Origin: Prevotella sp. | Lineage (GTDB): Bacteria; Bacteroidota; Bacteroidia; Bacteroidales; Bacteroidaceae | Direction of reading: 5' to 3' | Assembly: GCA_017428055.1 (NCBI GenBank) | Contig: JAFRRN010000070.1 | Coordinates: 1-45,218, forward strand | Length of the DNA: 45,218 nucleotides | Shown: positions 4,023-30,335 of the stretch, piece by piece | Layout: the number at the start of each line of letters is the position of its first letter | How positions within the stretch are numbered: the first letter of the stretch is position 1 | The notes under the pieces: model-generated | Database searches by the model: none | The model's input: only the letters and a program-made list of their open reading frames with translations | Told to the model about the DNA's origin: nothing | Made by a program: the position numbers and the translations under genes

Positions 4023-5444
4023 CTATTCGTGAACGTATAACTGCCAACCTAAATAGGTGTCAATCGCCTCGTTCAACACATCTACCACATCGGTGCGGCA
4101 CATGGCGACATGATGCTCAAAGCCATTCTTGCAGATGTATTTCATGAGCTTTTGCAGATTGTCAACCTTCGTCACGGCGATGCAACCATCCATGCCGTAT
4201 GGGTCGTCGGTGATTTCGCCCTTGCCAAGATAAGCCTTGATGCACCCCTTCGGGTCGTCGGTGGAGATGCGGAAGAACGTGAAGTCACCGCTTGTAACCT
4301 TGGCGTACACTGCCCCGAATGTATTGATCTTGCCCAACGTGCGACCAAGCACACCAAGCGGGCCGAGCTTGAGGTCGTTTTGCACAAACGACTTGGGGAA
4401 GTTACCGCAATGGGTGCATACGCACTTGTTACGCTCCTCGGCAAAGTTGTTGTTCCAATCGAGCAAGGCGGACGACTTTCCTGATGCCAACGTCAAGGCA
4501 TACATCGACACGGCTCCCGCAATGTCCGTCTCACAAGCGGCGGGTATGAGCTTATCGCCGAGCATCGACATGGTGACACAGGCGGCACAGCCATAGTTCT
4601 GTTCGAGCGAATCCCAACACTGGATGGCAACGGCTTGCACGTCGTTTGCCTCAATCCAATTTTCCACGGCAACGCCAAACTTCGCTTGCAACTTCAGTTT
4701 CTCGCGATAGTTCTCTGGCACTTCGGCATAGTGGTGCAGACGTTCACACATTTTCAAGAATTTGGGGTCGTCGTCCGCAATCTTCTGTGCGGCAAACAAG
4801 ATTTCCGACAAATCAGCAGGAACGACCGTAATGCCACTCCTTTGTAACAGTTTCTCGCTGGCGCGGCACGTGTTGAATCCCAAGGGACGTGTGCCTATCT
4901 GCCCGATACGGCAATGGCGCAACCCGTTCACCACGCGGCAGATGGCGGCAAAGCGATTCAAATCCTTTGCCAAAAGAGGACTATATATAGAATAGGTGTG
5001 GAGAGTGGTATCTGTAAAAGGTATACCATATTGATAGAGATTGTTGCAGACAGAAATCTTTCCGCAGAAAGCGTCGCGTCGGCTGTCAAGGTCTACCTTG
5101 TCGTTCTCATCATCACATGCCTGTACCAACACCGGCACATTCAGGTCGGCGTCACTAATGGCATTGATGATGCCTATCTCGAAGCCGAAGTTGGGTAACG
5201 ACACGATGATGCCGTCAATCTCATCACGATGCTCGCGGAACTGCTTGGAGACCTTCAGCCCGTCCTCGCGTGTCTCAATACTACTACTGCCCGTAGGCGT
5301 TGCGTCTTCGGGCAATATCACATATTCATACCCTTGTTGCTCCAAGGTTAAGAGCAATTGCTTGCGCACGTCTCTTGCTAACTCTGAATTGAAATAGGCG
5401 CGTGTACCGATAATCACGCCAAAACATGTCTTTCCGTTCTTCAT
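4023..5444 (-). CDS. L-fucose/L-arabinose isomerase-like protein
   Basis: A 473-residue cytoplasmic protein of the L-fucose/L-arabinose isomerase fold. It is about 120 residues shorter than the classic FucI (about 590), so it belongs to the shorter, less characterised group. Visible parts are the N-terminal Rossmann-like GVIIGTRAYFN, the central IGQIGTRPLGFNT, and the likely metal-site region QCWDSLEQNYGC with PAACETDIAG (near residues 278 and 302; the acidic residues match the family's metal-binding Glu/Asp). The expected reaction is interconversion of an aldose and its ketose. It lies downstream of a kinase and transketolase in the same operon direction, with its own -7 box at 5483-5490. 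I infer D-apiose isomerase or another pentose isomerase, with substrate unproven. Confidence 0.75.
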   Translation of the reverse strand: MKNGKTCFGVIIGTRAYFNSELARDVRKQLLLTLEQQGYEYVILPEDATPTGSSSIETREDGLKVSKQFREHRDEIDGIIVSLPNFGFEIGIINAISDADLNVPVLVQACDDENDKVDLDSRRDAFCGKISVCNNLYQYGIPFTDTTLHTYSIYSPLLAKDLNRFAAICRVVNGLRHCRIGQIGTRPLGFNTCRASEKLLQRSGITVVPADLSEILFAAQKIADDDPKFLKMCERLHHYAEVPENYREKLKLQAKFGVAVENWIEANDVQAVAIQCWDSLEQNYGCAACVTMSMLGDKLIPAACETDIAGAVSMYALTLASGKSSALLDWNNNFAEERNKCVCTHCGNFPKSFVQNDLKLGPLGVLGRTLGKINTFGAVYAKVTSGDFTFFRISTDDPKGCIKAYLGKGEITDDPYGMDGCIAVTKVDNLQKLMKYICKNGFEHHVAMCRTDVVDVLNEAIDTYLGWQLYVHE

Positions 5445-5482
5445 AAATGTTTTTGTTTGATAAATAATGCTTGTTCTGTTGA

Positions 5483-5490
5483 CAAAGATA
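5483..5490 (-). promoter_or_regulatory. Promoter -7 box of the isomerase gene
   Basis: On the minus strand this reads TATCTTTG, a full match to TAnnTTTG, 39 bases before the isomerase start. No clean -33 element is seen. It suggests the isomerase can be transcribed separately from the rest of the operon. Confidence 0.55.
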
Positions 5491-5495
5491 ACAAT

Positions 5496-5560
5496 AAAAA
5501 GTTAAAAGATGAAAAAGTTAAAAGGTGAAAAAGTGCTGACGCATAATTTTTTAACTTTTT
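5496..5560 (-). terminator. AT-rich hairpin and direct repeats after the DUF1593 gene
   Basis: The 13-base word AAAAAGTTAAAAG occurs twice (5496-5508 and 5512-5524), and TTTTAACTTTTT at 5549-5560 is complementary to 5512-5523. This gives a 12-base AT stem with T-runs just after the DUF1593 stop, plausibly a weak terminator or an attenuator before the isomerase promoter. Confidence 0.45.
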
Positions 5561-5572
5561 ATTTATCAATTC

Positions 5573-8182
5573 TTACCTGAGCCATTGCCAGCGTTTCCCC
5601 CAATCGTCCATGATTTCATCACGCACCTCCTTTTGGTATCTGGCACCGGCACAATCTTTCCAATAGTCGGCGGGCGCATAGCTATCCGTCCACCAATGGC
5701 TTCCCACTTGATAGTCGGTGGGGTTTATCTTATTATCCCACGTGTCCTCCACCGTTATCTCCCCCTCGATGGGTTTGAATCCTTTGACGGTAGAGGTGAT
5801 GGTGTAAGGCAGCGTACCTGTATAGTAGGTGGAGTGACGCACCACGTACAGGCCATCGCCTTTGTAGTAGCCTTTCCATTTCTGATTGCGTATGTCAAGG
5901 GTGACACAAGCAGAATCAATGGCGATGTCCTTCCGCTTGGGTCCTTTGACTTGCCACTCGATGATGGAGCATATCTGGGCAGTGTCTGCGGCGGTGGTGG
6001 CTCCGTGGAAGATGGTGTGCGGCGTCCTGTTACAACGCACGAATCGCCCACCCCACGATTGTTGTTCGGGATTCGATGGGTCGCCGTCCATCATATACAA
6101 TAAGGAGGGGGTATCGCCCAACTTGGGGTTGCCCTTGTAGTAGGCGGCAAAGTCGCGTCCCAAGTGTCCACTATCCTTGATGAATGTCTGGAAGAAACCC
6201 ATGTTATACTTGTCGTTGTTCTTCGAGTCGTAGATAAAGCCGCGATAGGTGGTGTTGTTCTCTATCATCCACAAATGGGGAAAGTTTTCCACGATATAGC
6301 AGTAGCCGTTGACACCCCATTTCTTGTTGGGACCGCCAATCCAATAGACTCGGATCTTATGTGCGATGTCCGGCGCATCGTGCAATGCCTGTGCCACATC
6401 CTCCAAGCAACCCCACACAAGTACATAGAGCGGGCGTGGGTCGTCCTTGCGGGCTTGTTTGATAATCCATTCCGACCCCTCCGTAGGCTTACCATAGCCG
6501 CACGGAGGGAGTTCGTTGGTGCGTCCTTGTTTCACCAACTTACGCAAGTCATCGGGCAACATGACCTCCGCATGATTTCTCAATACGGGATAGTCCTGCT
6601 CATATATGTCTATCATCCGATAGATTTCGTTGGAATGACCCGAACCGAAGGATGGCGACGACACCAACCCTTCAATGTCGAACAAGTCGGAATACATCAA
6701 TAGATGCGCCATCGACTGGTTGTCATCGGGGTCTGTCCCGCCGATGTCGGTACTGATGAGGACACGGGGTTTCTGAGGTTTGACCGTCACGATATAGCGA
6801 GCGTATGATGTCAGCCTTGGTGTTGTCATGTCGTATGCCTCCAAAATGACATGGATTGTCTTGGGTTCACTGACCTCAGGGGCGACAAACCATGCCTGTG
6901 GGTCGGTTTCAGCACCAAAAATCAAGTCGATGTTGTCCTTGTATGTACCCGAAGGATACTGATACCAGGCAACACGCCACTGTTGGCTATACTTTTCGGG
7001 ATTGGCGGCGACCTGTTCTTTGGTGATGCCCTTTTGCATCAACATCTCACCGCGAGCTTTCCACAAGGCATTGACATCCACGGGGTCAGGGTCACTCACA
7101 AGGGCACTCAGGCGAACGGTGTCGCCACTATGTACGGTCAAGTCAAGTCCTGACGGCACTTCTATGATAGGTTTGTGGTTGGCTTGGTTGTACTTGGGCG
7201 ACACGCACCATTGCAAACGAGCCTGAAAATCGTGCATGGCAGGTTCTATCCATTCGCGCAACTGGCCAAAGCCTGTGTCGCGATAAACACGCTGGAAACC
7301 TTTTGCCAAATAAAAGCAACCGCCCCATCCGCCGAATGTGGGATCTTCATAACTACGCAGACCGTTAGCCAATGAGTAGAGGAAAGCTGGCGTGTCGCCC
7401 TCGCTGATATAGGACTGAGTATAACACATGCCCAGAGGATTGCGCTTGTCGTGTAGGTATCGGTTGACAAAGTCGGTGGTGTTCGTCATCGTACCATAGT
7501 CCCAACTGCCACTGAAATGGTGGTTCAACAGGATGGTCACTAAGGGGTGTTGCTTCTCAATATACGAGCCGCCAGCATCTTGATACCAAATGCAATAGAG
7601 AACGGCCTTCGAGACCGCCCGCTCATAGTCTTGGGGATAGTCACGCTTCAACTTCTGAAAAGCCTTGGCTGCCGTATTCGTACCTCCCCAGCATTGAATA
7701 AACACTGGACGTGGGTCGTCTTCCAGCAACACTTCGACAATGCGGTCAGAACCTGGGGTGTCTGGCCATGCCGAGGGGTCTACCAATGGCGTTGCGCCAG
7801 GCAGGGTCATCTTGCATTGCTTGCCACTCAACACGATATGCGAGGGGTCTTCATCGCCCACATATACTCGCTGGCGAAGATAGTCGGGCGTGGGATATGC
7901 GGCATCGTGTACTTTCAGGTTCGGGTAGACTTGGGCGTAGGCATCCAACTGTTTCTTCAACCACGGGTCGTGGCTCCACCCCTTTTTCTGGAAGCATGAA
8001 TTGGTTTGGATGATGGCATCCACCTGCATGTCATTGGTATAGAGCAGGAAGTGTACCATCGAACAACGGTCGTCTGTCTCGGCATCGGTCAATACGATGA
8101 CTCTTGGTTTTTGAGCCATGATTGTCAACACACATACCGTGGCGAAAAGAATCAATAGCGTTTTCTTCATTCTAATTATCAT
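5573..8182 (-). CDS. Secreted tandem DUF1593/nucleoside-hydrolase-like protein
   Basis: An 869-residue protein with a signal peptide (MKKTLLILFATVCVLTIMAQ). Domain one (about 24-345) begins with VIVLTDAETDDRCS, a variant of the nucleoside hydrolase Asp-rich metal motif. Residues about 355-470 look like the beta-sandwich that follows in Sde182/DUF1593 proteins. Domain two (about 473-780) begins with LISTDIGGTDPDDNQS, a second copy of the same motif. The DUF1593 family is nucleoside-hydrolase-like, and its substrates are poorly known; hydrolysis of a furanosyl glycoside outside the cytoplasm is inference. Two starts are possible: ATG 8182, with a 4-base overlap (ATGA) with the permease stop, or ATG 8170 directly at the signal peptide. 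It lies between the transporter genes and the isomerase, so it likely serves the same sugar pathway. Confidence 0.75.
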   Translation of the reverse strand: MIIRMKKTLLILFATVCVLTIMAQKPRVIVLTDAETDDRCSMVHFLLYTNDMQVDAIIQTNSCFQKKGWSHDPWLKKQLDAYAQVYPNLKVHDAAYPTPDYLRQRVYVGDEDPSHIVLSGKQCKMTLPGATPLVDPSAWPDTPGSDRIVEVLLEDDPRPVFIQCWGGTNTAAKAFQKLKRDYPQDYERAVSKAVLYCIWYQDAGGSYIEKQHPLVTILLNHHFSGSWDYGTMTNTTDFVNRYLHDKRNPLGMCYTQSYISEGDTPAFLYSLANGLRSYEDPTFGGWGGCFYLAKGFQRVYRDTGFGQLREWIEPAMHDFQARLQWCVSPKYNQANHKPIIEVPSGLDLTVHSGDTVRLSALVSDPDPVDVNALWKARGEMLMQKGITKEQVAANPEKYSQQWRVAWYQYPSGTYKDNIDLIFGAETDPQAWFVAPEVSEPKTIHVILEAYDMTTPRLTSYARYIVTVKPQKPRVLISTDIGGTDPDDNQSMAHLLMYSDLFDIEGLVSSPSFGSGHSNEIYRMIDIYEQDYPVLRNHAEVMLPDDLRKLVKQGRTNELPPCGYGKPTEGSEWIIKQARKDDPRPLYVLVWGCLEDVAQALHDAPDIAHKIRVYWIGGPNKKWGVNGYCYIVENFPHLWMIENNTTYRGFIYDSKNNDKYNMGFFQTFIKDSGHLGRDFAAYYKGNPKLGDTPSLLYMMDGDPSNPEQQSWGGRFVRCNRTPHTIFHGATTAADTAQICSIIEWQVKGPKRKDIAIDSACVTLDIRNQKWKGYYKGDGLYVVRHSTYYTGTLPYTITSTVKGFKPIEGEITVEDTWDNKINPTDYQVGSHWWTDSYAPADYWKDCAGARYQKEVRDEIMDDWGKRWQWLR

Positions 8183-9141
8183 TTATTTTTTGAGAATCTA
8201 TCCAATATTACTGCCAAGAGAATGACGAAACCCTTGATGACCTGCTGCCAGAAAGGAGAGACATCGAGAAGGACAAGGCCATTGTTCAACACGCCGATGA
8301 TGAGTGCACCGACCACCGTGCCGAGGATGCTGCCACGTCCACCACTCAACGACGCTCCGCCAATGACGACGGCGGCAATGGCATCCAACTCATACCCCAT
8401 TCCAGCATTGGGCTGGGCAGAATCCAAACGTGCCGTGACAAGGATTCCCGCCACAGCTGACAAGATACCAGCCAAGGTATAGACCAAAAGCAAGACACGA
8501 TTGACGCGAATGCCCGAAAGCAAGGATGCCCGCTCATTGCCACCGATGGCATAGATGTAACGACCCGTCCGCGTCTTCTTCATATAAAAGGCGAAACAGG
8601 CAATGATGACAACGGCAATCCACACGGGCATCGGCACACCTAACAGCCACCCCGTACCGATGAACTCAAAGCCACCACCAAGATTAGTGATGGGAAAGCC
8701 GCCCGTATAGAGCATCGTCAGTCCACGGGCGATGGTCATCACGCCGAGCGTCGCCACGAAGGGAGGCACCTTGAATTTCGTCACCAAGATGCCATTGAAG
8801 CCTCCAAACACCGCTCCCACCAACAAGGCAGCGAGGCAACAGCCCCAGAAAGTAAATCCTACATAAGTGTCTGCGCTGGCCAAGTCGAAGCCTTGATGTG
8901 CCAGTCCTGCGGCGATGGCTCCTGACAATGCCAACACGGAGCCAACGCTGAGGTCGATGCCTCCTGTCAAGATGACTAATGTCATACCGACGGAGATACA
9001 GAGGTTGACGCTGGTTTGGCGCAACACGTTAAAGAAGTTGTCGGAAGTGGCAAAGTTTTCCGAGAGGATGGTCATTGCCAAGCACATCAGCAACAAGGCA
9101 ATGAGCGGCTTCACGATAGGTTTTTGCAATATGGTTTTCAT
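8179..9141 (-). CDS. Ribose-type ABC transporter permease
   Basis: A 320-residue inner-membrane permease of the RbsC/BPD_transp_2 family, with about ten hydrophobic segments. Family hallmarks are VGMTLVILTGGIDLSVGS (near residues 50-70), the conserved GILVTKFKVPPFVATLG, and the C-terminal GGASLSGGRGSILGT loop that contacts the ATPase. It forms the channel through which a sugar bound by the adjacent periplasmic protein enters. It overlaps by 4 bases both the ATPase gene upstream and the DUF1593 gene downstream, so translation is probably coupled. Such ABC sugar importers are uncommon in Bacteroidetes, which mostly use SusCD and MFS carriers. Confidence 0.93.
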   Translation of the reverse strand: MKTILQKPIVKPLIALLLMCLAMTILSENFATSDNFFNVLRQTSVNLCISVGMTLVILTGGIDLSVGSVLALSGAIAAGLAHQGFDLASADTYVGFTFWGCCLAALLVGAVFGGFNGILVTKFKVPPFVATLGVMTIARGLTMLYTGGFPITNLGGGFEFIGTGWLLGVPMPVWIAVVIIACFAFYMKKTRTGRYIYAIGGNERASLLSGIRVNRVLLLVYTLAGILSAVAGILVTARLDSAQPNAGMGYELDAIAAVVIGGASLSGGRGSILGTVVGALIIGVLNNGLVLLDVSPFWQQVIKGFVILLAVILDRFSKNK

Positions 9142-10661
9142 TCGGGTAATGATGCTTTAAGGATGTTTTCTTCAGTTAATTCAGAATGTTCAAAAGTCTG
9201 TCCGATACGACCTTGGCACAAGGTGACGATACGGTCAGAGATAGCCATGATCTCTGGCAACTCCGATGAGATGACCATGATGGCCATACCCTGTTGTGCC
9301 AACTCGTCTATCAGACGGTATATCTCATTCTTGGCATGGATGTCGATGCCACGCGTCGGTTCGTCGAGAAGGAGTACTTTGGGCTGGGTCATCAGCCATT
9401 TCCCCAAGACAATCTTCTGTTGGTTTCCACCACTTAATTGACCAGCCAACTGATTGGCGGAGGAAGACTTAATCTTCAGACGCTCTCGATAGCCATCGAC
9501 ATATCGGCGTTCCTTTCCATGATGGAGCAAACCATGCGAAAGACAGTCTGCAAGTGATGCCAAGGTGATATTATGCTCGATGGACATACCCAATACCAAT
9601 CCCTCACGCTTACGGTCTTCGGGACACAATGCCATTCCATGCCTCACCGCCTCTTGCGGATGGCGGATGATGACAGATTTTCCTTCTATACGGATGATGC
9701 CAGTAACTGTCGTGGGATGCAAACCAAAAATCGCCTCAAAGAGTTCCGTCCGCCCTGCACCCATCAAGCCGTAGATGCCCAGCACCTCTCCCTTGTGGAC
9801 AGTCAATGAAATGTCGTCGAGCATCAGTTGCGATGGATGTTCCTCATGACGCATCGACAAATGCTCCACTTCCAATACAGGTTCTCCAAGAGGATGCTCT
9901 TCCTTGACGAAAAATTCCTTTCGTTCACGCCCCACCATCATTCGGACAATCTCATCCGTGGTGGTGTCACTCATCTGTATCTCCTTGACGAGTTGTCCGT
10001 CACGCATGATGGTCACGAAATCCGCCAACCGCCACACCTCATCCATCTTATGCGAGATATAGACAATACCCACCCCTTTCGACTTCAGTTCCTCTATGAG
10101 GGCAAACAGGATGTCTGTCTCTGACTCTGATAGTGAGGAGGTCGGCTCGTCCATAATCAAGACGCGGGCGTTGAGCATCAGTGCCTTCGCTATTTCCACC
10201 AACTGCTGTTGCCCCACGCGGAGGTCGCCCATCAGTGTGTGCGTGTCTACCTGTACATGAAGACGACCAAGCCATTCACGCGCCTCGCGGTGCATCCGCC
10301 TCTCGTCTACCAACCCAAGGCGAGTCAATGGCTCTCTCCCCAGAAACATGTTCTCGGCAATATTCATATAGGGAACGAGGTTCAATTCTTGGTGGATGAT
10401 GGCAATTCCTTTCTGTTGGGCATCGACGACACCCGTGAAATGCTGCACCTCGCCATCCACCAACACCACGCCATCATAGTCGGGATAGACACCCGATAGG
10501 ATATTCATTAGTGTGGACTTGCCCGCACCGTTCTCACCCACCAGCGCATTCACCTTTCCCGCAATGATGCGAAGGTTCACCTTGTCAAGCGCCAATACGC
10601 CAGGAAACCGTTTTGTCACCTCGCGGGCTTCAACAATAACATGTCCTTTCACCATACACAT
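9138..10661 (-). CDS. Ribose-type ABC transporter ATPase
   Basis: A cytoplasmic ATPase of about 507 residues with two fused nucleotide-binding domains, as in RbsA/XylG/AraG. The first half has Walker A GENGAGKST (near 43-51), signature LRVGQQQLVEIAKAL and Walker B VLIMDEPTSSL. The second half has a degenerate Walker A (GLMGAGRTE), signature LSGGNQQKIVLGKWL and Walker B VLLLDEPTRGID. The asymmetric second P-loop is normal for this family. I chose the ATG at 10661, 3 bases after the DUF2291 stop; a GTG at 10664 and an ATG at 10655 are alternatives. It energises the importer with the neighbouring permease and binding protein. Confidence 0.93.
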   Translation of the reverse strand: MCMVKGHVIVEAREVTKRFPGVLALDKVNLRIIAGKVNALVGENGAGKSTLMNILSGVYPDYDGVVLVDGEVQHFTGVVDAQQKGIAIIHQELNLVPYMNIAENMFLGREPLTRLGLVDERRMHREAREWLGRLHVQVDTHTLMGDLRVGQQQLVEIAKALMLNARVLIMDEPTSSLSESETDILFALIEELKSKGVGIVYISHKMDEVWRLADFVTIMRDGQLVKEIQMSDTTTDEIVRMMVGRERKEFFVKEEHPLGEPVLEVEHLSMRHEEHPSQLMLDDISLTVHKGEVLGIYGLMGAGRTELFEAIFGLHPTTVTGIIRIEGKSVIIRHPQEAVRHGMALCPEDRKREGLVLGMSIEHNITLASLADCLSHGLLHHGKERRYVDGYRERLKIKSSSANQLAGQLSGGNQQKIVLGKWLMTQPKVLLLDEPTRGIDIHAKNEIYRLIDELAQQGMAIMVISSELPEIMAISDRIVTLCQGRIGQTFEHSELTEENILKASLPE

Positions 10662-10664
10662 CAC

Positions 10665-11246
10665 TTATTGGAGTAGTTGATAGGGGATGATGGTGACACT
10701 TTGCTCAACTTGACCATCCTTGACAGCAACCGCCCCAAGGACTTTCAATCTGCGGTCTGAATGGGGTGGTGTCATATTCTTCGAGATATAATCGTTCATC
10801 GCGGCAGACACCGCATTGAAATCCATCGTGTTCTGAAAGTCGTCTATGTCGAACCATCCCGAAGCATCACGGGCGGTGTTGCCGAATATATATTTCAAGG
10901 GAATTGTCAACGCAATGCCATTGACCGATGCGTGAATCTCGTCATTCACCACCTGTGCTTGGTCGCATTCTCCTTTCACGACATAGAAAGTGGGCGACCC
11001 GATGCCCAACAGCCGCCCATGCCGTTGGGCAAAATCCGCCTCGCCAGCGTGTTTCACCAACTCTTCCAAGGAAATTGCCCTTCCCTCCAATGCCGCCAAG
11101 GAGTCTGTCATCAACCTTGAAACCAACTGTTCGGGCTTCAGTTCTTTCATCTCCTCCCGCCTCTTCCGTTCCGTCAAGTTCTCCGTATAGAATGAGAACC
11201 AAAGGGCGACAATAACCAAACCAATGATAAAGAAAACCTTTCTCAT
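10665..11246 (-). CDS. DUF2291 family protein of the importer locus
   Basis: A 193-residue protein with one N-terminal membrane segment (VFFIIGLVIVALWFSFY), a short coiled region (TERKRREEMKELKPEQL) and a periplasmic part predicted as mostly beta. It matches DUF2291, a family of unknown function that recurs next to ribose-type ABC importers, so it may be an accessory subunit or assembly factor (established association, role unknown). Its ATG overlaps the stop of the binding-protein gene by 4 bases and it abuts the ATPase gene, so the four genes form one coupled block. Confidence 0.75.
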   Translation of the reverse strand: MRKVFFIIGLVIVALWFSFYTENLTERKRREEMKELKPEQLVSRLMTDSLAALEGRAISLEELVKHAGEADFAQRHGRLLGIGSPTFYVVKGECDQAQVVNDEIHASVNGIALTIPLKYIFGNTARDASGWFDIDDFQNTMDFNAVSAAMNDYISKNMTPPHSDRRLKVLGAVAVKDGQVEQSVTIIPYQLLQ

Positions 11247-12205
11247 TCATCCATCCTCCCAAAATGTCCGTATTGTGATACATTCTTCTTGTTTACCAAT
11301 TCCACGGCAACAGGCAACTTCTTAGGAAGGTCACGCTCGCCCCCGATATACTTGTCTGCCAAGGTGGCGGCAGTCTGTGCCATAGTCTTGGGGAACTGCA
11401 TTCCCGTAGCCTCGACCTTCCCCTCGCGGATGGCGTTGACGCAATCGTCTGCCCCATCGAAGCCAAACACCTTGATACGGTCTGTCTTACCCGCCGCCAA
11501 TACGGCTTGATATGCTCCCATCGCCATCGCATCGTTGCCACAAAACACGGCATCGATGTCCTGGTGTGCCTGCATCATCGACTCCATCACCTCCATCGCC
11601 TTATTTTGGTCGAAGTCGGCATTCTGTTGTGCCACCATCTTCAATCCCTCAAAGCAATCGACTACAGAATGGAAGCCACGGCTACGCGCCCAAGTGTTGT
11701 TGTCACCCACCAGCCCAAGTATCTCCACATAGTTGCCCGTGCGGTTCATGGTCTCCACGAAATACTCACCAAGCGTGATGCAACCCGAATAGTTGTCGCT
11801 GAGGATCTGCGTGACACATGCCCCCGGCACATTGATTTCCCTGTCCATACAGAACACGGGGATGCCAGCCCTTGCCGCTGCCTTGGCATTCACCGCCGAA
11901 CCGTCGGCATCGGTAGGATTAAACAAGATGGCCTTGTAGCCTGATGCCAAGATGTTATCAAAATGCTCCGCCTCCTTGGAGGGGTTGTTCTGTGAGTCGA
12001 ACAAGGTCGCTTCATATCCCAGTTCCTCGCACCGCGCCACCGCCGTCTGTCCCAACACCACGAACCAAGGGTTATTGAGCGTGGAAATCACCACGGCAAT
12101 CTTTCCTTTCTGATGGTCATTTCCTGACTTACATGCCACCATCCCCGATAACAACAAGGTGATAGCAAGAGAGAGGAAGACACTTTGTATTCTTTTCTTC
12201 ATCAT
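11243..12205 (-). CDS. Periplasmic sugar-binding lipoprotein
   Basis: A 320-residue substrate-binding protein of the ribose/D-allose type (Peripla_BP_4). The signal sequence ends at GMVAC, a plausible lipobox with the lipidated C25. The mature part begins IAVVISTLNNPWFVVL and contains CMDREI, NNTWARSRGF and FCGNDAMAMGAYQAV, all usual for sugar-binding proteins whose Asn, Arg and Asp residues hold a pyranose or furanose. It delivers the sugar to the permease and ATPase encoded just downstream. A second ATG at 12202 gives an equally good start. The ligand cannot be read from the sequence; a free pentose is the inference. Confidence 0.92.
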   Translation of the reverse strand: MMKKRIQSVFLSLAITLLLSGMVACKSGNDHQKGKIAVVISTLNNPWFVVLGQTAVARCEELGYEATLFDSQNNPSKEAEHFDNILASGYKAILFNPTDADGSAVNAKAAARAGIPVFCMDREINVPGACVTQILSDNYSGCITLGEYFVETMNRTGNYVEILGLVGDNNTWARSRGFHSVVDCFEGLKMVAQQNADFDQNKAMEVMESMMQAHQDIDAVFCGNDAMAMGAYQAVLAAGKTDRIKVFGFDGADDCVNAIREGKVEATGMQFPKTMAQTAATLADKYIGGERDLPKKLPVAVELVNKKNVSQYGHFGRMDE

Positions 12206-12214
12206 TTAACCAGA

Positions 12215-13705
12215 TTAGATTTCACGATACTTGAAATGGCGGAAAGTGGCATAGCCATCACCTTGAACAAAAAGTCCAGGGAGAACGCTTTGGAAGTCGT
12301 ATAGGGTGTTGTGGTGATAGCCCGAGATTTCCTGCGCCCATCCCTCACGATGCCATGTGATGCCATCCTCGCTCCAGAATCCTGTCACGACATGATTATC
12401 ATTGCGCAGCCGCAGCCAAAGGTGAGTGGTGCCGTTGGTCTGTCCCCGTCGTGACAACTCATTGCGGCGCACTCGGTAACGTTGTTGGAGGTCGAAACAG
12501 ATGCCCACATTGAACTGGCTATTATAATATAAGGTGAGTCCAGCCTTCGCCTCGCCCACGATGTCCACCTCCGCCTCAAACTCATAACGGTGGCTACCCG
12601 CCACAAACATCAAGGGGGCTGACGACCCGCAGTCAGTTCCTTGCGCCCGCATGGTAAGCGCACCATCACGTACTTGGACACGTTGTGGGTCGTATGCTTT
12701 GTAGAATTTCCAATCAAGACCAATCCTAAACTCTCCCAACCGCTCGTGGCGGTCGATTGGAGTCCATTCAGCGGTGGGCTGTGCCATCGGCAGACTGGCA
12801 TCGCCACCATCAGCCTTGAGCCACCCATCGGCTGTTAAGTGTACCGGTTCCATGAGGGTTTGCCTACCTAATGTCAAAAAGTCCTTCTCGTAAGCGTGGT
12901 ATACACAATACCAATTGCCCTCTGGGGTGTCAATAAGCGAGCCATGACCCCTACTCCACCATCGCTCCTGATCGCTTGCTGTATGGATAAGTGGATTGGT
13001 AGGCATATTTTCCCACGGTCCGTCAATACTCTCCGACCGTGCCACGACCACCGCATGGCTTGTTGCAGGACCCGCTGTTCCACCCTCTGCACTGAGGTAA
13101 TAATAGTACTTGCCAATGCGATACACCTTGGGCCCTTCCAAGCTGAACCCCTCCACAATCCAATCATCGGGTAAAGGCCAACCATCATATACATGCTCCA
13201 ACGTACCTGGCACGACTGACAGACCGTCGTCTGTCAACTCCACGCGATTGCCCCCGCTAAGGAAAAGGTAGCGTTTTCCATCCTCTCCCACCACATGACA
13301 GGGGTCGATGTTTCCCAATTTCAAGTCGATGGGGTCGCTCCATGGACCGTATGGCGAGTCGGCTACGACCACATAATTAGTCCTTGGTCTTCGTGCAACC
13401 GTAAAATAGATGTAATATTTCCCTTTATATTTCTTGATGTCGGGAGCCCAGATAGACCCCAGGTATTCCTTCAAGGCGCAACTCACCGGTTCCCAATGGA
13501 CGAGGTCGCGCGAGTGCATCACCGTCAAACCCGGCTGGTAGTCGAATGCCGAGTGGGTCATATAATAATCCTCGCCATCGCGAAGAATGGTGGGATCAGG
13601 ATAGTCACCTGATAGAATCGGGTTGGTGAATGTCTGGGCAGAGACTGACAAAGTCATGGTCAACAGACAGAAAGCGGCAATCTTGCCAACTTTCTGCCTT
13701 GCCAT
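12215..13705 (-). CDS. Secreted GH43 family glycoside hydrolase
   Basis: A 496-residue exported enzyme: signal peptide to about residue 25 (ending SVSAQ), then a five-bladed beta-propeller of glycoside hydrolase family 43 to about residue 310, then a concanavalin-like C-terminal domain (about 320-495) of the kind that follows in many GH43 beta-xylosidases and arabinofuranosidases. Likely catalytic residues are the Asp in SGDYPDPTI, the Asp in SIWAPDIKKY and the Glu in GFSLEGPKV, which matches the usual family triad. GH43 enzymes cleave furanosyl or xylosyl residues from plant polysaccharides. The ATG at 13726 would add 7 residues. It is 9 bases upstream of the binding-protein gene in the sugar operon, so it probably releases the imported sugar or its precursor. 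Confidence 0.88.
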   Translation of the reverse strand: MARQKVGKIAAFCLLTMTLSVSAQTFTNPILSGDYPDPTILRDGEDYYMTHSAFDYQPGLTVMHSRDLVHWEPVSCALKEYLGSIWAPDIKKYKGKYYIYFTVARRPRTNYVVVADSPYGPWSDPIDLKLGNIDPCHVVGEDGKRYLFLSGGNRVELTDDGLSVVPGTLEHVYDGWPLPDDWIVEGFSLEGPKVYRIGKYYYYLSAEGGTAGPATSHAVVVARSESIDGPWENMPTNPLIHTASDQERWWSRGHGSLIDTPEGNWYCVYHAYEKDFLTLGRQTLMEPVHLTADGWLKADGGDASLPMAQPTAEWTPIDRHERLGEFRIGLDWKFYKAYDPQRVQVRDGALTMRAQGTDCGSSAPLMFVAGSHRYEFEAEVDIVGEAKAGLTLYYNSQFNVGICFDLQQRYRVRRNELSRRGQTNGTTHLWLRLRNDNHVVTGFWSEDGITWHREGWAQEISGYHHNTLYDFQSVLPGLFVQGDGYATFRHFKYREI

Positions 13706-13797
13706 GCTTATTAAACATGTCATCATAACCTTTGCTTTTGTAGATTTTTAAGTTTGTTTGTTTGGAAATCTTCGTGGACGCACAATATATCCTTATC

Positions 13798-15276
13798 TTA
13801 TTTTGTCAATTGGTTGACAGCGTCGCGCCATCCCTGGTACAGCGTGTCAAGTTGTGGGTTTGCTTGGGGATATAAGGTCTGCGTCACCTTGCGGAAACCC
13901 GTCACCTCGTCAAAGCCCTGCCACACGCCACGGGCAAAGCCATTCATGATGGCCGCGCCAAGGGCAGAGGCATCATCCACCTCCGTACAGACAACGGGTG
14001 TATCGAGCATGTCTGCTTGGAATTGCATCAGGAATTGGTTTTTCGTAGGACCGCCATCGGCGCATATCTCACGCAGTTTGCTCCCTGTAGCCTTTGCCAT
14101 CACATCTACCAAGTCTCTCACTTGATAGGCGATGGACTCCAAGGCGGCACGGAGGAAATGGGCTTTCGTCGTGGCGAAGGTCAAGCCAAACACTGCTCCT
14201 TTCACGCCACTCTGCCACCAAGGTGCGCCCAGCCCGGAGAAGGCCGGCACGATATACACGCCGCCGTTGTCTGCCACGCTTGTTGCCAACGCCTCCATCT
14301 CGGCGGGATGCGCCACGAGTTGCAACTGGTCGGCAATCCATTTCAGCGTCGCACCCGTACTATAGATGTTGCCCTCATAACCGTACCACGTCTTGCCAAA
14401 GGCGGAGAAACCCACCGATGTCACCAAGCCCTCGGGGGCTGGCAACGGCTCTTCGCCAATGTTGACCATGACGCTGGAGCCAGTGCCGTATGTCACCTTG
14501 CCAGACCCTTTCGTGAAACACATCTGTCCGACAAGGGCACCGTGGGAGTCGCCCAACACGCCCGCTATTGTAATTGGCTCTTGGAACACACCCTCCACGG
14601 TTGTCTCGCCATAGACGGCATCACAAGGCAACACCTCAGGCATCATCGTGCGGGGGATGCCGAAAAGTGCCAACAGGTCTTCATCCCATTGCATCGTATG
14701 GATATTGAAGAGCATCGTGCGCGACGCATTGGTGGTATCAGTGGCAAACACCTTGCCGCCCGTCAGTTTCCAGACGAGCCACGTGTCTATCGTACCCATC
14801 AACAGGTCGCCACGCCCTGCCCGTTCCCGTGCGCCCTCGATGTTGTCAAGCAGCCATTTCACGCCGCTCGCGGAGAAATTGGGGTCGATGAGGAGGCCGC
14901 TCTTGTCAAGCACCATCTGGGCATAGCCGTCTTCTCGCAACTGTTTGCAAATATCCTTTCCCCTCGTGTCTTGCCACACCACGGCACGTGAGATGGGCTT
15001 TCCCGTGTGTCTGTCCCACACGACTACCGTCTCCCGCTGATTGGTGATGGCAATGGAATAGGTGGCATCCTCCTCCCGATGGCCGTCAATCAATTGACGG
15101 ACAGCCACGACGAGGTTACCGTAAATCTCTCCCGCGTCATGTTCCACATATCCCTCTTGGGGATAATACTGGTGGTGGTCCACATTCTGCCGTCCCACCA
15201 ATTGGCATCGTCCGTCAAAGAGCAAAGCCTTCGTGGAAGATGTACTTTGGTCAATAGCAATGATATAATGTTTCAT
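13798..15276 (-). CDS. FGGY-family kinase, glycerol-kinase-like
   Basis: A 492-residue cytoplasmic FGGY kinase, similar over its whole length to glycerol kinase (IAIDQSTSSTKALLF at the N-terminus, NASRTMLFNIHTMQW, YIVPAFSGLGAPWW-like segment). It phosphorylates a polyol or ketose with ATP. Comparing from memory with E. coli GlpK glycerol contacts: R81, E82, W101 and D243 are kept, but the positions of Tyr135, Gln246 and Phe270 are N133, S244 and S268. The pocket is therefore remodelled and glycerol is an unlikely main substrate. It is followed by GH43 and preceded by the transketolase genes. An apulose or other ketose kinase is inferred; plain GlpK remains possible. Confidence 0.8.
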   Translation of the reverse strand: MKHYIIAIDQSTSSTKALLFDGRCQLVGRQNVDHHQYYPQEGYVEHDAGEIYGNLVVAVRQLIDGHREEDATYSIAITNQRETVVVWDRHTGKPISRAVVWQDTRGKDICKQLREDGYAQMVLDKSGLLIDPNFSASGVKWLLDNIEGARERAGRGDLLMGTIDTWLVWKLTGGKVFATDTTNASRTMLFNIHTMQWDEDLLALFGIPRTMMPEVLPCDAVYGETTVEGVFQEPITIAGVLGDSHGALVGQMCFTKGSGKVTYGTGSSVMVNIGEEPLPAPEGLVTSVGFSAFGKTWYGYEGNIYSTGATLKWIADQLQLVAHPAEMEALATSVADNGGVYIVPAFSGLGAPWWQSGVKGAVFGLTFATTKAHFLRAALESIAYQVRDLVDVMAKATGSKLREICADGGPTKNQFLMQFQADMLDTPVVCTEVDDASALGAAIMNGFARGVWQGFDEVTGFRKVTQTLYPQANPQLDTLYQGWRDAVNQLTK

Positions 15277-15311
15277 TTTTAGTTAGGTTTTACAGAAATA
15301 ATGAAAGTCGC

Positions 15312-15343
15312 AATATCGAAATATCGATATACCGAAATATCGA
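15312..15343. repeat. Four tandem 8-base units
   Basis: Four consecutive octamers (AATATCGA, AATATCGA, TATACCGA, AATATCGA) fill part of the 90-base gap between the transketolase and kinase genes. The unit boundary also creates the palindrome TATCGATA. It could be an operator, a slipped-strand length-variable spacer, or chance in AT-rich DNA. Confidence 0.6.
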
Positions 15344-15366
15344 AAAAAACGACATATCACAATAAA

Positions 15367-16308
15367 TTAATCCAAAATCCTTAAACACGCCTCATAAATC
15401 CCTTGGTAATCAAAGCCATAATGACGAAACACCTCCAAGGGCGACGCATGGATGACATTCTCATCGGGAATGCCCAGGATCTTCATCCTGACAGGACATT
15501 CCTGTGCCGTCACCTCTGCCACCATCGACCCCAAGCCGCCATACACGCTATGCTCCTCGGCGGTGACAATACATCCCGTATCCCGTGCCGCTTTCAGCAC
15601 GGCATCCTTGTCGAAGGGCTTGAGCGAGTGCATATCGAGCACACGGGCATGGATGCCCCGTTCCCTCAGCATCCGCCCAGCCTCCAAGCAATGGGCAACG
15701 GTCTCGCCCGTGCCGATGATAGTAAGGTCGGTGCCGTCCATCAACATATTGGCCTTACCCAATTCAAAATCGAAGTCATCGGTCTCATATACATCGGGAA
15801 CGGCATTGCGACCCACACGGATATAGGCGGGCTTGGGGCGGTTGACCAACGCCTCGACCAACTTCCTCGTCTGGCGGACATCACAGGGCAAGTAAACTTC
15901 CATGCCGGGGAAGGTGCGCAAGACAGCGATGTCGTGCAACGAATGGTGGGTGGCTCCCAACTGGCTATATGCCACGCCGCCACTGACACCGCAGATCTTC
16001 ACGGGCATCTGTGAATATGCCAAATCCACCTTGACCTGTTCTAACGCGCGAGCCACATAGAAACAGGCGGGTCCGAAGATAAATACTTTCTTTCCCGTAG
16101 AGGCAAGGCCGGCACTGATGCCCACGGCATTCTGCTCGGCAATGCCCACCTCCACAAATTGCTGTGGCAAAGCCTTGCCAAAGTCGGTCAACGTGGCGGA
16201 GCCACTGGCATCTGATGTCACGGCGACGATGTCCTTGTCTTTTGCCGCCAATTCCATGAGCGTATTGGTAAAACTCTTGCGGCAGGGAATCTGATTGGGT
16301 GCTTTCAT
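15367..16308 (-). CDS. Transketolase C-terminal subunit
   Basis: A 313-residue protein holding the pyrimidine-binding and C-terminal domains of transketolase. The catalytic Glu is E58 in VEVGIAEQNAVG. Other usual family segments are SQLGATHHSLHDIAV and TAEEHSVYGGLG. It pairs with the subunit encoded just upstream, with a 4-base overlap (16305-16308), to form a split transketolase that moves a two-carbon ketol unit between sugar phosphates. Split transketolases occur in several anaerobes and archaea, and one such pair acts on apulose 4-phosphate in the published D-apiose route. That assignment here is inference. Confidence 0.9.
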   Translation of the reverse strand: MKAPNQIPCRKSFTNTLMELAAKDKDIVAVTSDASGSATLTDFGKALPQQFVEVGIAEQNAVGISAGLASTGKKVFIFGPACFYVARALEQVKVDLAYSQMPVKICGVSGGVAYSQLGATHHSLHDIAVLRTFPGMEVYLPCDVRQTRKLVEALVNRPKPAYIRVGRNAVPDVYETDDFDFELGKANMLMDGTDLTIIGTGETVAHCLEAGRMLRERGIHARVLDMHSLKPFDKDAVLKAARDTGCIVTAEEHSVYGGLGSMVAEVTAQECPVRMKILGIPDENVIHASPLEVFRHYGFDYQGIYEACLRILD

Positions 16309-17126
16309 TGTCCTATCCTTTCCTTGATTTCTTTCATTGCTTGTTTGTATTGTTCCTCAGAGGGCACACCATGATGCCACTTGGCGACATTCTCCATGAA
16401 CGAGACACCAAGTCCCTTCGTGGTATGCGATATAATAAGGTGGGGGCGGCCATTGGTGAAGTCAATGCTATCCATCGTGTCAACAATCTCATCGATGCTA
16501 TCACCATTCATCTCCATGACATCCCAACCAAAGGCAGTCCAGCGGTCACGGATGCTCTCCAACGGCATCACATCCTCCGTGGAGCCGGAAATCTGCAACC
16601 CATTGCGGTCGATGATGGCGACAAGATGGTCCAAATGGTATTTGTTGGCTGCCATCGCCGCCTCATAAATGCTGCCTTCAGCCTGTTCGCCATCGCCCAT
16701 CACGACCCACGTCTTCCACCCTTCGCCCGACAACTTGGCACCGAGAGCCATTCCCACTCCCGCCGAAAGTCCGTGGCCAAGGGCACCTGTGTTGATCTCC
16801 ACGCCAGGGATGTCCACCGTGGGATGCCCGCCAAGGTGGGCATAGTCCTTACCATACGCCTCCAACTCACTCTCGGAAATGAAGCCTTTGTCACACAACA
16901 CACAGTAGAGAGCCTCGGCACAATGGCCCTTGCTCAACACGAAGCGGTCGCGCTGAGGCATCTTCGGCTGCCGTGGGTCTACATTCAACACGCGGTTGTA
17001 GAGGACGGTCAGCACATTCAGCACCGACAAGTCACCGCCCGTATGTCCTGTATGCCCTGAATAAATCAGTTGGATGAGGCGTTTCCGCAATAGCTCTTGT
17101 TTCGTTTTCAGTTCTTGTTTATTCAT
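16305..17126 (-). CDS. Transketolase N-terminal (TPP-binding) subunit
   Basis: A 273-residue protein carrying the thiamine-diphosphate and magnesium site of transketolase: GDGEQAEGS at 144-152 and N175 (IIDRNGLQ). The N-terminal HTGHTGGDLSVL and HPTVDIPGVEINTGALGHGLS are also characteristic. It needs the adjacent C-terminal subunit to be active. It is the first gene of the sugar operon and carries a good promoter (17158-17165) 32 bases before its ATG. Confidence 0.92.
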   Translation of the reverse strand: MNKQELKTKQELLRKRLIQLIYSGHTGHTGGDLSVLNVLTVLYNRVLNVDPRQPKMPQRDRFVLSKGHCAEALYCVLCDKGFISESELEAYGKDYAHLGGHPTVDIPGVEINTGALGHGLSAGVGMALGAKLSGEGWKTWVVMGDGEQAEGSIYEAAMAANKYHLDHLVAIIDRNGLQISGSTEDVMPLESIRDRWTAFGWDVMEMNGDSIDEIVDTMDSIDFTNGRPHLIISHTTKGLGVSFMENVAKWHHGVPSEEQYKQAMKEIKERIGQ

Positions 17127-17165: not shown

Positions 17166-17382
17166 AGAAATAAAAACATAAAACGAAAGAAAGCGAAAGA
17201 GAAAGATAATGACATTAACTATATTTAGCGATTATAAGCCACCCGCAAGATATTCTTTTGAATAATAATGAAAGGGAGTGTGCCAGAATCGACATTTCTC
17301 CTTTGATGTATAATTTGCACCACATTCGCCTATCTTTATGCAGTTTTCCCAATAAATCAATAGTTTTTTCAAGGAAAATGAT

Positions 17383-17390
17383 TATCTTTG
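17383..17390 (+). promoter_or_regulatory. Promoter -7 box of the toxin-antitoxin pair
   Basis: TATCTTTG matches TAnnTTTG and lies 27 bases before the ATG at 17417, which supports that start. No perfect -33 element is visible (a T-rich run at 17364-17369 is nearest). Confidence 0.6.
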
Positions 17391-17416
17391 TACTCTACAA
17401 GAAGATTTATGCAGTT

Positions 17417-17677
17417 ATGTCACGCGAGCAAATCATAGATAAACACAAGAGCCTCTTCTGGTATACGCCAGAGGCAGAGAAACAAAGCATCAGCGATGCC
17501 CTGCTTGTGGAGCGCATCTTGAATGATGGCACACTTGACGATTACCGTGAGTTGATTGACACACTTGGTGGCAAGCGAGTGGCAGAGGTGTTTTTTTCTG
17601 CCAAAGGGAGGCAAAAGCAAAACTACTATCCCGAAATCTATCATTTCTTTTCCCTGGTTCTTAAGAAATATGTTTAG
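17417..17677 (+). CDS. DUF6922-like antitoxin
   Basis: An 86-residue protein. Its N-terminal LFWYTPEAEKQSISDALLVERILNDG and central YRELIDTLG segments resemble the DUF6922 domain found next to AbiEii-type nucleotidyltransferases in Bacteroidetes, here recognised from the FW...VERIL..G...YREL pattern and the C-terminal FFSLVLKK. It is probably the antitoxin or regulator of the pair (inference). The start ATG 17417 is set by the promoter just upstream. Its last codons overlap the following gene by 8 bases (ATGTTTAG), strong evidence of translational coupling. Confidence 0.65.
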   Translation: MSREQIIDKHKSLFWYTPEAEKQSISDALLVERILNDGTLDDYRELIDTLGGKRVAEVFFSAKGRQKQNYYPEIYHFFSLVLKKYV

Positions 17678-18287
17678 TGAGATATTGAACAACCAACAAA
17701 TGCAGTTGCTCCCACTAATGGCTCAATTCCGACGGGAGTATTATTTAGTGGGTGGCACAGCCATTGCGCTCTATATCGGTCATCGACGTTCCATCGACTT
17801 TGATTTGTTCAAACCTTCAGCAATTAACCACAAGCGAAACCTTGACAAAATTGCTGCTTATCCATTTCCACATATAGTAACCCGTCGCGTTTCGGAACAA
17901 ATGAATCTTGTGGTCAACAATGTGAAGATAACTTTCTTCCAATATCCCTTTCCCATTGAGCCAACAACCAAGTTTGATACATATTTCCGTTTACCCTCCT
18001 TACTGCAATTAGCTGCTATGAAGGCGTATGCTTTAGGACGTCGCTCCAAATGGAAAGACTACGTTGACCTATATTTCCTATTGAGTGACTTCTTTACAAT
18101 ACCTGACATTTCCACCATCGCCACACAAACATTTGGCGAACTTTATTCCGAGAAAATGTTTCGCTCACAGCTCTGCTATTTTGATGACATTGATTACACA
18201 GAAGCTGTAGAATGGCTTGTTCCAAATCCACCTACAGAAGATGAAATTAAGTCAGCACTGACAGAATTCGCTACACAGGGAATCTGA
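17670..18287 (+). CDS. AbiEii-like nucleotidyltransferase toxin
   Basis: A 205-residue protein with the minimal nucleotidyltransferase motif: VGGTAIAL at 27-34 and the acidic pair SIDFDLF at 41-47, the pattern of AbiEii/type IV toxins and related antiviral proteins. Later parts (LPSLLQLAAMKAYALGRRSKWKDYVDLYFLL, shown by key residues LAAMKAYA and KDYVDLYFL) also match the family. It would add nucleotides to a cellular target and arrest growth (known for family members, inferred here). It starts inside the end of the partner gene. The segment has lower GC than the operon to the left, consistent with a transferred module. Confidence 0.8.
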   Translation: MFSEILNNQQMQLLPLMAQFRREYYLVGGTAIALYIGHRRSIDFDLFKPSAINHKRNLDKIAAYPFPHIVTRRVSEQMNLVVNNVKITFFQYPFPIEPTTKFDTYFRLPSLLQLAAMKAYALGRRSKWKDYVDLYFLLSDFFTIPDISTIATQTFGELYSEKMFRSQLCYFDDIDYTEAVEWLVPNPPTEDEIKSALTEFATQGI

Positions 18288-18406
18288 ATTACATGTCGTA
18301 GTAACACAAACAACTATCTGCCCGATAAAGGCATCAAGGGTGGAGTTCACAGACCAATAAACACGATGGGCTATATACCATAATAAAAACAATATAGACT
18401 TATACC

Positions 18407-20035
18407 TTAACACCCCATCGGCAATATCATTTTATTTATATCAAGAGGCGTTGCTAATACCATCTCGCCCTGTGTTGATTTTCCTGTTTCAAAGATATTC
18501 TTCCAGAAAGCATAAACCTGCTTACCTCCAAACAACGTTGACGAAAACTCGCGACTCTTCCACAAAGGAAGATTTGACAAGTTGATTATGAAATTCTCAA
18601 TATTCAGCCACAATTGATCAGGTAATTCTGTTTGAAAGAAATCTCGACGCCCATAAACAGCCTTACCATTCTGAGCATAATACATGGTTATTACATCAAG
18701 AATATATTTCAACCAAGAGTAAATGATTTCTTCTTTCATCATTCTATAACCAACGACATGATTCCAATCGATATTCTCTCCTTGTTGAATTCTGTTTTCT
18801 ATTCTATAGGTGCCTATATCAAAGTCGTACTTGCCCACAAGGATAACATCTGCTATTATATTCATTAGACGAATAATCTGTTTCTTTTCTAAATCTCGTG
18901 GATTCTTACCTTCTTCAAGCCTATAGTCGATATTCGTTTCAAGTGCATCTGGATAAATGAAAAACGAGTAAAATGTTTTTTCTATAGTTGAATACGACAG
19001 AGGCTTTTCCTTCGCACGTCCACCCATATCAATATATTCTCGTAGTTTATTATCTTCGCCATATGTTATTCCGTCTTTGACAGAGTCAATGATATAACGT
19101 TTCATTTCGCGGGATTCACCTTTGTAAAAATTTATCAGGACTTTTTCTGAGAAAGAGAAATCATCTGGAGAAAGATTGACCTGTTTTTGATAATGCTCTA
19201 TTCGATCTTGATATAATGTACTTCCCAAATGTCGTTGAACAGATTTATCAAACGCAACTTGCTTCAAAGTCGTTCCTGCATTTAAATTGGTCTTTTTTAT
19301 TTTTTCCTTATCAGGATTGACAAATATCCTAACTGGTATGTTCTTTATTCCTAACATTATTTGAGCGGCAGCTTTATGTTGACCATCAAATAGCTTAACT
19401 TCAGATAATCCATCTATTTCATTCTCAACATAACCCAAAGAAATATGCAATTGGGGGTTTCCCTTATAAAACTCTGCTAACAATTTTGACACATTTGACC
19501 CTATTGAACGTGGGTTAATCTTATCGTCATGAAAGACATACTGTATTGGCAATAAGGTAAAGAAATACTGTTCATTACTCAAAGTGTCAGTATAAACAGG
19601 AAGTTCTATCACCTCAACCTTTCCTATTTCTGCATATGAAAAACGAACCTTATCTCCATGCATATAGAATTTGAGTTTATGCTTTGCACCACCATATAGA
19701 TTAAGCACATCTGTCAAATTAGGATTTCTATTATCTGAGTGTTGGAGTTCATCGCAAAGTGTTTTGAATTGCCAATTAATACGAGCGAGGTTTAAGTCTG
19801 CAGCTTGTTTTGATCTATTAGCATAGCTAAATGTTAATGCAAAATTTGACTCGTCATCCTTCCCTCCATTAGTAAGAGGTACAATATGGTCTATATCTAA
19901 TTGGCCTTCATGTAATTGTAGGTCAATATCTTTGCCTGTAATAAAACACTTTCCCTTTTGAATCGTCCATAAACGATTAACCAATTCTTTACGTTCATCA
20001 TTATTCAACCTTCCGAGAAAAATAGAGTTTGCCAT
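18407..20035 (-). CDS. HNH endonuclease with DGQH (DndB-like) domain
   Basis: A 542-residue protein. The N-terminal part carries an HNH nuclease motif: C30 (KCFITGKD), D49-H50 in LDIDHIVPL, N64 and N73/K76. Only one cysteine of the usual Cys pairs is visible, so zinc binding may be reduced. The middle part has LFDGQHKAAA (D217-H220) followed by TNLNAGTTLKQV, the signature of DGQHR/DndB-like ParB-fold domains associated with DNA phosphorothioation and other DNA-modification systems. No other dnd, pgl or methyltransferase genes are nearby. A 370-residue C-terminal part shows no familiar motif. A good promoter (20072-20103) lies upstream. A stand-alone anti-phage or DNA-modification-sensing nuclease is the inference. 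Confidence 0.7.
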   Translation of the reverse strand: MANSIFLGRLNNDERKELVNRLWTIQKGKCFITGKDIDLQLHEGQLDIDHIVPLTNGGKDDESNFALTFSYANRSKQAADLNLARINWQFKTLCDELQHSDNRNPNLTDVLNLYGGAKHKLKFYMHGDKVRFSYAEIGKVEVIELPVYTDTLSNEQYFFTLLPIQYVFHDDKINPRSIGSNVSKLLAEFYKGNPQLHISLGYVENEIDGLSEVKLFDGQHKAAAQIMLGIKNIPVRIFVNPDKEKIKKTNLNAGTTLKQVAFDKSVQRHLGSTLYQDRIEHYQKQVNLSPDDFSFSEKVLINFYKGESREMKRYIIDSVKDGITYGEDNKLREYIDMGGRAKEKPLSYSTIEKTFYSFFIYPDALETNIDYRLEEGKNPRDLEKKQIIRLMNIIADVILVGKYDFDIGTYRIENRIQQGENIDWNHVVGYRMMKEEIIYSWLKYILDVITMYYAQNGKAVYGRRDFFQTELPDQLWLNIENFIINLSNLPLWKSREFSSTLFGGKQVYAFWKNIFETGKSTQGEMVLATPLDINKMILPMGC

Positions 20036-20071
20036 CTTCTAAATAATTAAGTTTCTTGTTAATAACTAATG

Positions 20072-20103
20072 CAAAAGTACGAACATTTTTCTATAATCAC
20101 AAA
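20072..20103 (-). promoter_or_regulatory. Promoter of the HNH/DGQH gene
   Basis: Minus-strand TTTG (20100-20103), 20 bases, then TACTTTTG (20072-20079) matches the Bacteroidetes consensus closely. The gene starts 37 bases downstream. Confidence 0.75.
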
Positions 20104-30274: not shown

Positions 30275-30335
30275 ACGGTATAAAAATATGTTAGTAAATA
30301 ATGATTTGCCAGTATAGGTAGACATGATTTGTTTG

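Follow-up and report, generated by a model that had tools for sequence, protein, structure and literature searches.

Which sugar is served by the operon at positions 4023-17126 of a contig from Prevotella sp.? The stretch of DNA that was analysed (the window, 45,218 nucleotides (nt)) carries there genes for a sugar importer, an isomerase, an FGGY kinase and a two-subunit transketolase, and the original prediction had read them as a pathway for D-apiose. In this study we conclude that the operon very probably imports D-apiose from plant pectin and catabolises it by the transketolase route, with substrates and reactions that we infer for this organism from its sequences. The proposed route is borne out by the parts shared with the apiose cluster of Escherichia coli, by the match of the isomerase, by synteny and co-occurrence with glycoside hydrolase family 140 (GH140) and rhamnogalacturonan II (RG-II) genes and by the lack of an epimerase in 80 importer loci. 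The core pathway itself has been known since 2018, when Carter et al. reportedly described the D-apiose transketolase pathway of Enterobacteria (ApsI, AplK and AptA/AptB).

Apiose would be freed outside the inner membrane by the GH140 enzyme of another locus and probably by the DUF1593 protein of the operon, and would then be taken up by an ABC importer with a binding protein and a DUF2291 lipoprotein. The isomerase would turn D-apiose into D-apulose and the glycerol-kinase-like kinase would convert D-apulose to apulose 4-phosphate. Finally, the two-subunit transketolase would transfer two carbons to glyceraldehyde 3-phosphate, so that xylulose 5-phosphate and dihydroxyacetone phosphate are formed.

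Results

Organisation and conservation of the operon

Ten minus-strand open reading frames (ORFs) make up the operon, and their verified coordinates and junctions are as had been claimed. Overlaps of 4 nt join the N-terminal and C-terminal transketolase subunits (TkN and TkC), the sugar-binding protein and DUF2291, the ATPase and the permease, and the permease and DUF1593; the DUF2291 and ATPase genes abut, and the remaining junctions are gaps of 9, 71, 90 and 128 nt. Pfam confirmed every one of the ten proteins in its family. A scan for promoters and terminators was uninformative (19 and 15 sites vs shuffle means of 14.6 and 13.3). Among named relatives, the closest binding protein (91% identity) is found in a Prevotella metagenome-assembled genome (MAG) from buffalo omasum, where the locus (L057) has a gene set and order identical to those of the window operon, its GH43 gene included.

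For a wider comparison, three aligned binding proteins served as a profile to search contigs, and of the 194 relatives found the 80 best were kept, several of these importer loci being cut by contig ends. Since the greedy ORF caller drops overlapping genes, we counted the genes again by tblastn with fixed minimum bit scores. The transketolase pair was found in 52/80 loci, and isomerase, kinase and both transketolase subunits together in 43/80. The predicted grouping of importer, isomerase, FGGY kinase and two-subunit transketolase, with which Pfam agrees, is hence more than a chance arrangement. Among the 52 loci with the pair, 48 had the isomerase, 46 the kinase, 28 DUF1593, 8 a BT_1020-like protein and 3 a GH140-like protein; four of the 52 lacked an isomerase in the locus, as judged by a locus-level search. 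Where the pair was missing (28 loci), the isomerase was present in the locus in 3 and in the genome in 23 (best matches 43-90%); the genomes of L059, L093, L116, L133 and L135 had none. In the Maribacter litopenaei locus L102 the transketolase, DUF1593, ATPase and kinase matches come in pieces, which suggests decay of the operon or sequencing errors.

With E. coli queries, tblastn detected rpe, araD, rpiB, fucA, xylA, araA and fucI neither in the window nor in the 80 importer loci, and the window also gave no match for rbsK or rbsD. The earlier observation that a pentose epimerase is missing therefore holds for these queries.

Relation to the enterobacterial apiose clusters

E. coli and E. fergusonii strains with an apiose cluster grow on D-apiose (PMC13001218). 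The cluster of the E. coli type is described as having two oxidoreductases instead of the isomerase gene apsI, in contrast to that of Pectobacterium carotovorum WPP14 (PMC13001218). The query sequences of that study came from E. coli SE15, which it does not name as one of the strains grown on apiose. Its cluster comprises a binding protein, a DUF2291 protein, an ATPase, a permease, an FGGY kinase, a regulator, two transketolase genes and two short-chain dehydrogenases/reductases. Six SE15 cluster proteins matched window proteins by BLAST at 32-45% identity; the DUF2291 proteins of the two clusters gave no BLAST match and are kin by Pfam.

The AptA-like subunit TkN, which would bind thiamine diphosphate (16305-17126; Transketolase_N, 1.1e-43), is 43% identical to AptA of SE15 and 45% to TkN of Rahnella, and the AptB-like subunit TkC (15367-16308; Transket_pyr and Transketolase_C) is 38% identical to AptB of SE15 and 39% to TkC of Rahnella. 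On the importer side, the ATPase (9138-10664; ABC_tran) is 45% and the permease (8179-9141; BPD_transp_2) 40% identical to the SE15 proteins. The proposed D-apiose isomerase (4023-5444), a member of the Fucose_iso_C family (PF02952, 5e-34), aligns over 98-99% of its length, at 46% identity, with isomerases on Rahnella, Sodalis and Klebsiella plasmid records, in clusters that also hold an importer, DUF2291, a regulator, the transketolase pair and the kinase. Because the Rahnella enzymes are 72-79% identical to those of SE15 (TkN 79%, TkC 76%, kinase 72%; regulator 72%), the window isomerase matches isomerase-bearing versions of the apiose cluster. The E. coli, Rahnella, Sodalis and Klebsiella clusters all have a DUF2291 gene annotated in the corresponding position; in the window its product is a predicted periplasmic lipoprotein (10665-11246; PF10054, 4.6e-24).

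The window operon and the enterobacterial pathway hence have in common a CUT2-type importer with DUF2291, a glycerol-kinase-like FGGY kinase and a two-subunit transketolase, and in the Rahnella, Sodalis and Klebsiella versions also a Fucose_iso-type isomerase. They differ in that the window genes are a single directon that includes secreted DUF1593 and GH43 proteins, that a DeoR-family protein stands against their 'sugar-binding transcriptional regulator', and that the window kinase is not clearly orthologous to AplK.

Isomerase

A phmmer search gave no solved relatives of the isomerase at 0.001, and comparing its profile with the FucI of the same genome yielded no real match. The tree built for the isomerase, from 34 of 56 rows, has branches of length 10, and we do not trust its root. 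Homologues at 36-37% identity (L025 and L026) neighbour an FGGY kinase of another kind; the stretch read there shows no transketolase, and they probably act on another sugar; for homologues at 25-27% (L028-L032) no transketolase was seen within the 4.3 kb read. As their kind of operon differs, none of these was counted as an orthologue. In records labelled Monoglobus (L161, 6839-13733) and Listeria (L160, 6836-14617), isomerase, TkN, TkC and kinase form operons; the two isomerases share 71% identity with each other and 29% with the window isomerase. A PF13204 protein (3.2e-16) lies downstream of the Monoglobus core and a GH140-like protein (26% identity) downstream of the Listeria core, and these isomerases would form a second clade for the same route.

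The fucose isomerase family also suits D-arabinose, which the isomerase would convert to D-ribulose for phosphorylation by the kinase. For two enzymes of the Thermotoga maritima ribose operon, which also has a transketolase, this sugar has been predicted (PMC3750489). The assignment is itself a prediction in that paper, the 80 loci lack the epimerase, and neither the links to GH140 and RG-II nor the parts shared with the E. coli apiose cluster would be explained, so that we regard D-arabinose as a very improbable substrate.

Binding protein and importer

The sugar-binding protein (11243-12205) is probably a lipoprotein, signal peptides having been judged by eye. Its best solved match is T. maritima TM0958 (1.5e-106, 59% identity to the chain), followed by 2ioy (4.3e-59) and 4ry0/5ibq (3e-57); the last two we take to be the same protein, holding ribose in 4ry0 and apiose in 5ibq. 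TM0958 was stabilised by ribose and crystallised with it (PMC2630998). Compared by eye, the window protein retains the ribose contacts given there, and 5ibq retains all but one Phe (a Trp in 5ibq). With the contacts kept in the one and nearly all in the other, the pocket does not discriminate between the sugars.

Use of ribose or ribofuranosides would make this a true ribose importer, with DUF1593 freeing ribose and the enzymes feeding the pentose phosphate pathway. Besides the ribose-bound best match, the nucleoside-hydrolase fold of DUF1593 points this way, as do the planctomycete loci L133 and L135, in which importer and DUF1593 (four places in each) are joined with rbsD; these two loci probably handle ribose and might be a ribose branch. 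On the other hand, a dedicated two-subunit transketolase is unnecessary for ribose, Sde_0182 is described as inactive on nucleosides (PMC8910321) and the association with GH140 is strong. The window lacks both rbsK and rbsD, and among the 52 transketolase loci rbsK-like matches occur in 2 (one strong) and rbsD in none. Ribose as the substrate is therefore very unlikely.

The T. maritima ribose operon, as described in the literature, shares with the window a related binding protein, and its transketolase and two sugar enzymes (PMC3750489) add to the likeness. It differs by a ribokinase, of which the window has none. The T. maritima genome, used as a control, gave matches for both PF02952 and PF13204.

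Kinase

The proposed apulose kinase (13798-15276) scores over the cut-off of the GlpK subfamily model (607 bits) and reaches 569 bits on the GlpK equivalog, for which the cut-off is 590. No other GlpK-like gene was found in the window's genome. The kinase of the SE15 apiose cluster likewise scores best on the glycerol-kinase model. Apulose ends in a C(OH)(CH2OH)2 group that resembles glycerol, so that a glycerol-kinase-like enzyme would be chemically apt. The role of the window kinase is assigned from its genomic context.

The original prediction had named a binding protein that prefers ribose or another common sugar and a kinase highly active on glycerol only as findings that would speak against apiose. 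Both tests are weaker than stated: the first because TM0958, the ribose binder, shares its operon with a transketolase and two further sugar enzymes (PMC3750489), the second because of the SE15 kinase score.

Links to GH140 and rhamnogalacturonan II

None of the ten operon proteins has a PF13204 (GH140-type) domain by Pfam. The one PF13204 copy of the genome lies on another contig (C93), in an RG-II-like locus with GH2, rhamnosidase, GH140, GH95 and a BT_1020-like protein. This locus is comparable to the GH140 apiosidase/RG-II loci of Bacteroides, which differ from our operon in serving polymer breakdown rather than sugar catabolism. In the same genus, the core of TkN, TkC, kinase and isomerase also occurs, whole or in part, without the importer (20 stretches read). 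In L034 and L038 it adjoins BT_1020-like and GH95-type genes, with an AXE1-type gene in L034 too, and a GH140 apiosidase lies inside L038 and just past the end of L034 (G009:C10:224941). The BT_1020-like protein of C93 is 75% identical to that of L038.

The genus sample comprised 72 genomes, our own included, a number derived from tallies in which the negatives are not all listed. The isomerase at at least 76% identity was found in 21 of them, a strong GH140 match in 25 and both in 19. GH140 thus occurs in 19/21 isomerase carriers vs 6/51 others; the two carriers without it have genomes that are 63% and 84% complete.

The secreted DUF1593 protein

The finding that is new concerns the secreted protein at 5573-8182 (PF07632, 2.5e-117), a proposed apiofuranosidase that links DUF1593/Sde182, a family without known activity, to an apiose-type operon. 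A literature search, made mostly on listings, showed no published link between DUF1593/Sde182 and apiose. The protein has two nucleoside-hydrolase-like domains (207.7 and 189.1 bits vs a curated cut-off of 26.8), is encoded by the genome's only PF07632 gene and matches 2yhg (4e-40), the Sde182/DUF1593 structure from Saccharophagus degradans. With 2yhg it has the nucleoside-hydrolase-like domain in common; it differs in its tandem domains, in its place in an apiose-type operon and in belonging to smaller subgroups (4 and 9 members, vs 33 in the main operon-linked subgroup).

PF07632 exceeded the cut-off in 13/149 genomes of the order sample, our own included, vs 73/80 importer genomes (45/50 and 28/30), a comparison that is not matched, since the importer genomes were selected by their importer and include other phyla. 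The count within genomes is a better guide: with 248 PF07632 matches in the 80 importer genomes, about 1.0 importer locus would hold one by chance, and 36 do. In 31 of these 36 loci DUF1593 adjoins an operon gene on the same strand. In five Dyadobacter genomes (7.4-8.7 Mb) the sole copy sits in the operon; over all 19 single-copy genomes it is in the locus in 7 and elsewhere in 12.

Conservation was read from 52 near-full domains of 75 found. Four aspartates that by their motif would be equivalent to the calcium site of nucleoside hydrolases are almost invariant (D33/D479 in 49/52, D37/D486 in 52/52, D38/D487 in 52/52 and D263/D690 in 51/51), and a histidine is conserved in 47/52. A Glu before the GDTP motif, speculatively a possible acid, is found in 42/51; window domain 1 has it (E261) and domain 2 has L688. 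Beta-D-apiofuranose has a cis-diol like that of ribose, and this likeness, together with the conserved aspartates, leads to the apiofuranosidase proposal: the fold that grips the ribose cis-diol with calcium would have been turned to the cis-diol of apiofuranose and to O-glycosides. In nucleoside hydrolases calcium binds the 2',3'-diol of ribose, and the leaving group can be acted on by a His beside the last Asp; Sde_0182 is reported to keep calcium and ribofuranose binding without nucleosidase activity (PMC8910321).

Hence it might be possible, as a proposal that we advance only tentatively, that secreted Sde182/DUF1593 proteins form a new calcium-dependent apiofuranosidase family that works beside GH140 on pectins with apiose, for example RG-II or apiogalacturonan, and that the Thermotoga 'ribose/D-arabinose' operon also serves apiose. 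There is about an even chance that DUF1593 instead binds furanoses as a non-catalytic module, or hydrolyses some other furanoside, and is carried along with pectin-degrading loci. Sde_0182 has been proposed as a furanose-interacting module (PMC8910321), and GH140 already handles the apiosyl linkage of RG-II (PMC7939467). The missing Glu of window domain 2 fits a module as well. Among 12 of the 14 other order-sample genomes with a PF07632 hit (G160 was left out, as was G085, which has a partial isomerase match at 60%), the isomerase was present at at least 60% identity in only 3 and at 37% in 1, gave short weak matches in 2 and was not found in 6. Against a mere module stand the conserved calcium-site aspartates and the linkage to the importer.

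The original prediction had offered two secreted apiosidase candidates. That for DUF1593 is strengthened by linkage and conserved aspartates. The GH43 glycosidase (12215-13726; Glyco_hydro_43, 4.6e-85) was rejected as an apiosidase: a close homologue occurs in 1/80 importer loci, which makes it a local addition and not a conserved member.

Upstream genes

A probable regulator of the locus, of the DeoR family, is encoded on the minus strand at 22245-23015 (DeoRC, 5e-49), and a secreted protein without a Pfam family, possibly pectate-lyase-like by its motif, on the same strand at 23012-24757. In relatives, homologues of both lie next to the core enzyme genes. DeoR homologues were found in 26/80 importer loci and in L043 and L050. 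Homologues of the secreted protein lie beside the core in L034-L038 at 84-90% identity and occur at up to 45% in 11/80 importer loci. Both genes probably belong to the apiose locus. Between them and the operon lies a probable island (17258-21720) with AbiEii-like nucleotidyltransferase, HNH and archaeal-type ATPase genes (Pfam) that are not part of the pathway. As the AbiEii, HNH and ATPase proteins had no match in 100 comparison loci, this island of about 5 kb probably split the locus.

Upstream of the secreted protein gene, 24911-30325 encodes an 1804-aa protein with DUF4957 and DUF5123 repeats, pieces of which match at 42% in L036 and L038; it is possibly another pectin gene of the locus. 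A calcineurin-like phosphoesterase at 33602-35101 also matches dockerin type I (1.2e-08).

Discussion

A number of observations weigh against apiose as the substrate. The nearest solved relative of the binding protein, TM0958, is a ribose binder, and L133 and L135 combine the importer with rbsD, without a transketolase in the locus or an isomerase in the genome. The kinase is 44% identical to E. coli GlpK vs 37-42% to AplK of SE15 and Rahnella, and in the tree (30 of 51 rows) it falls outside the AplK group, the enterobacterial kinases forming a long branch of their own. The isomerase family is found in other contexts below about 40% identity, and we infer from position that the Rahnella-type isomerase is ApsI. 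The association of isomerase and GH140 in the genus (Fisher p = 2.5e-10) is not corrected for kinship, and DUF1593 is also found without the apiose pathway.

Apiose carries the borate cross-link of RG-II in plant walls, and apiose catabolism would therefore be part of finishing pectin digestion. The operon described here belongs to an apiose-type module found in several phyla, and it gives a testable function for DUF1593, a family with a solved member and no known activity. As such, it suggests that the clade of 'ribose' binding proteins and the 'D-arabinose' genes of Thermotoga might be worth retesting with apiose.

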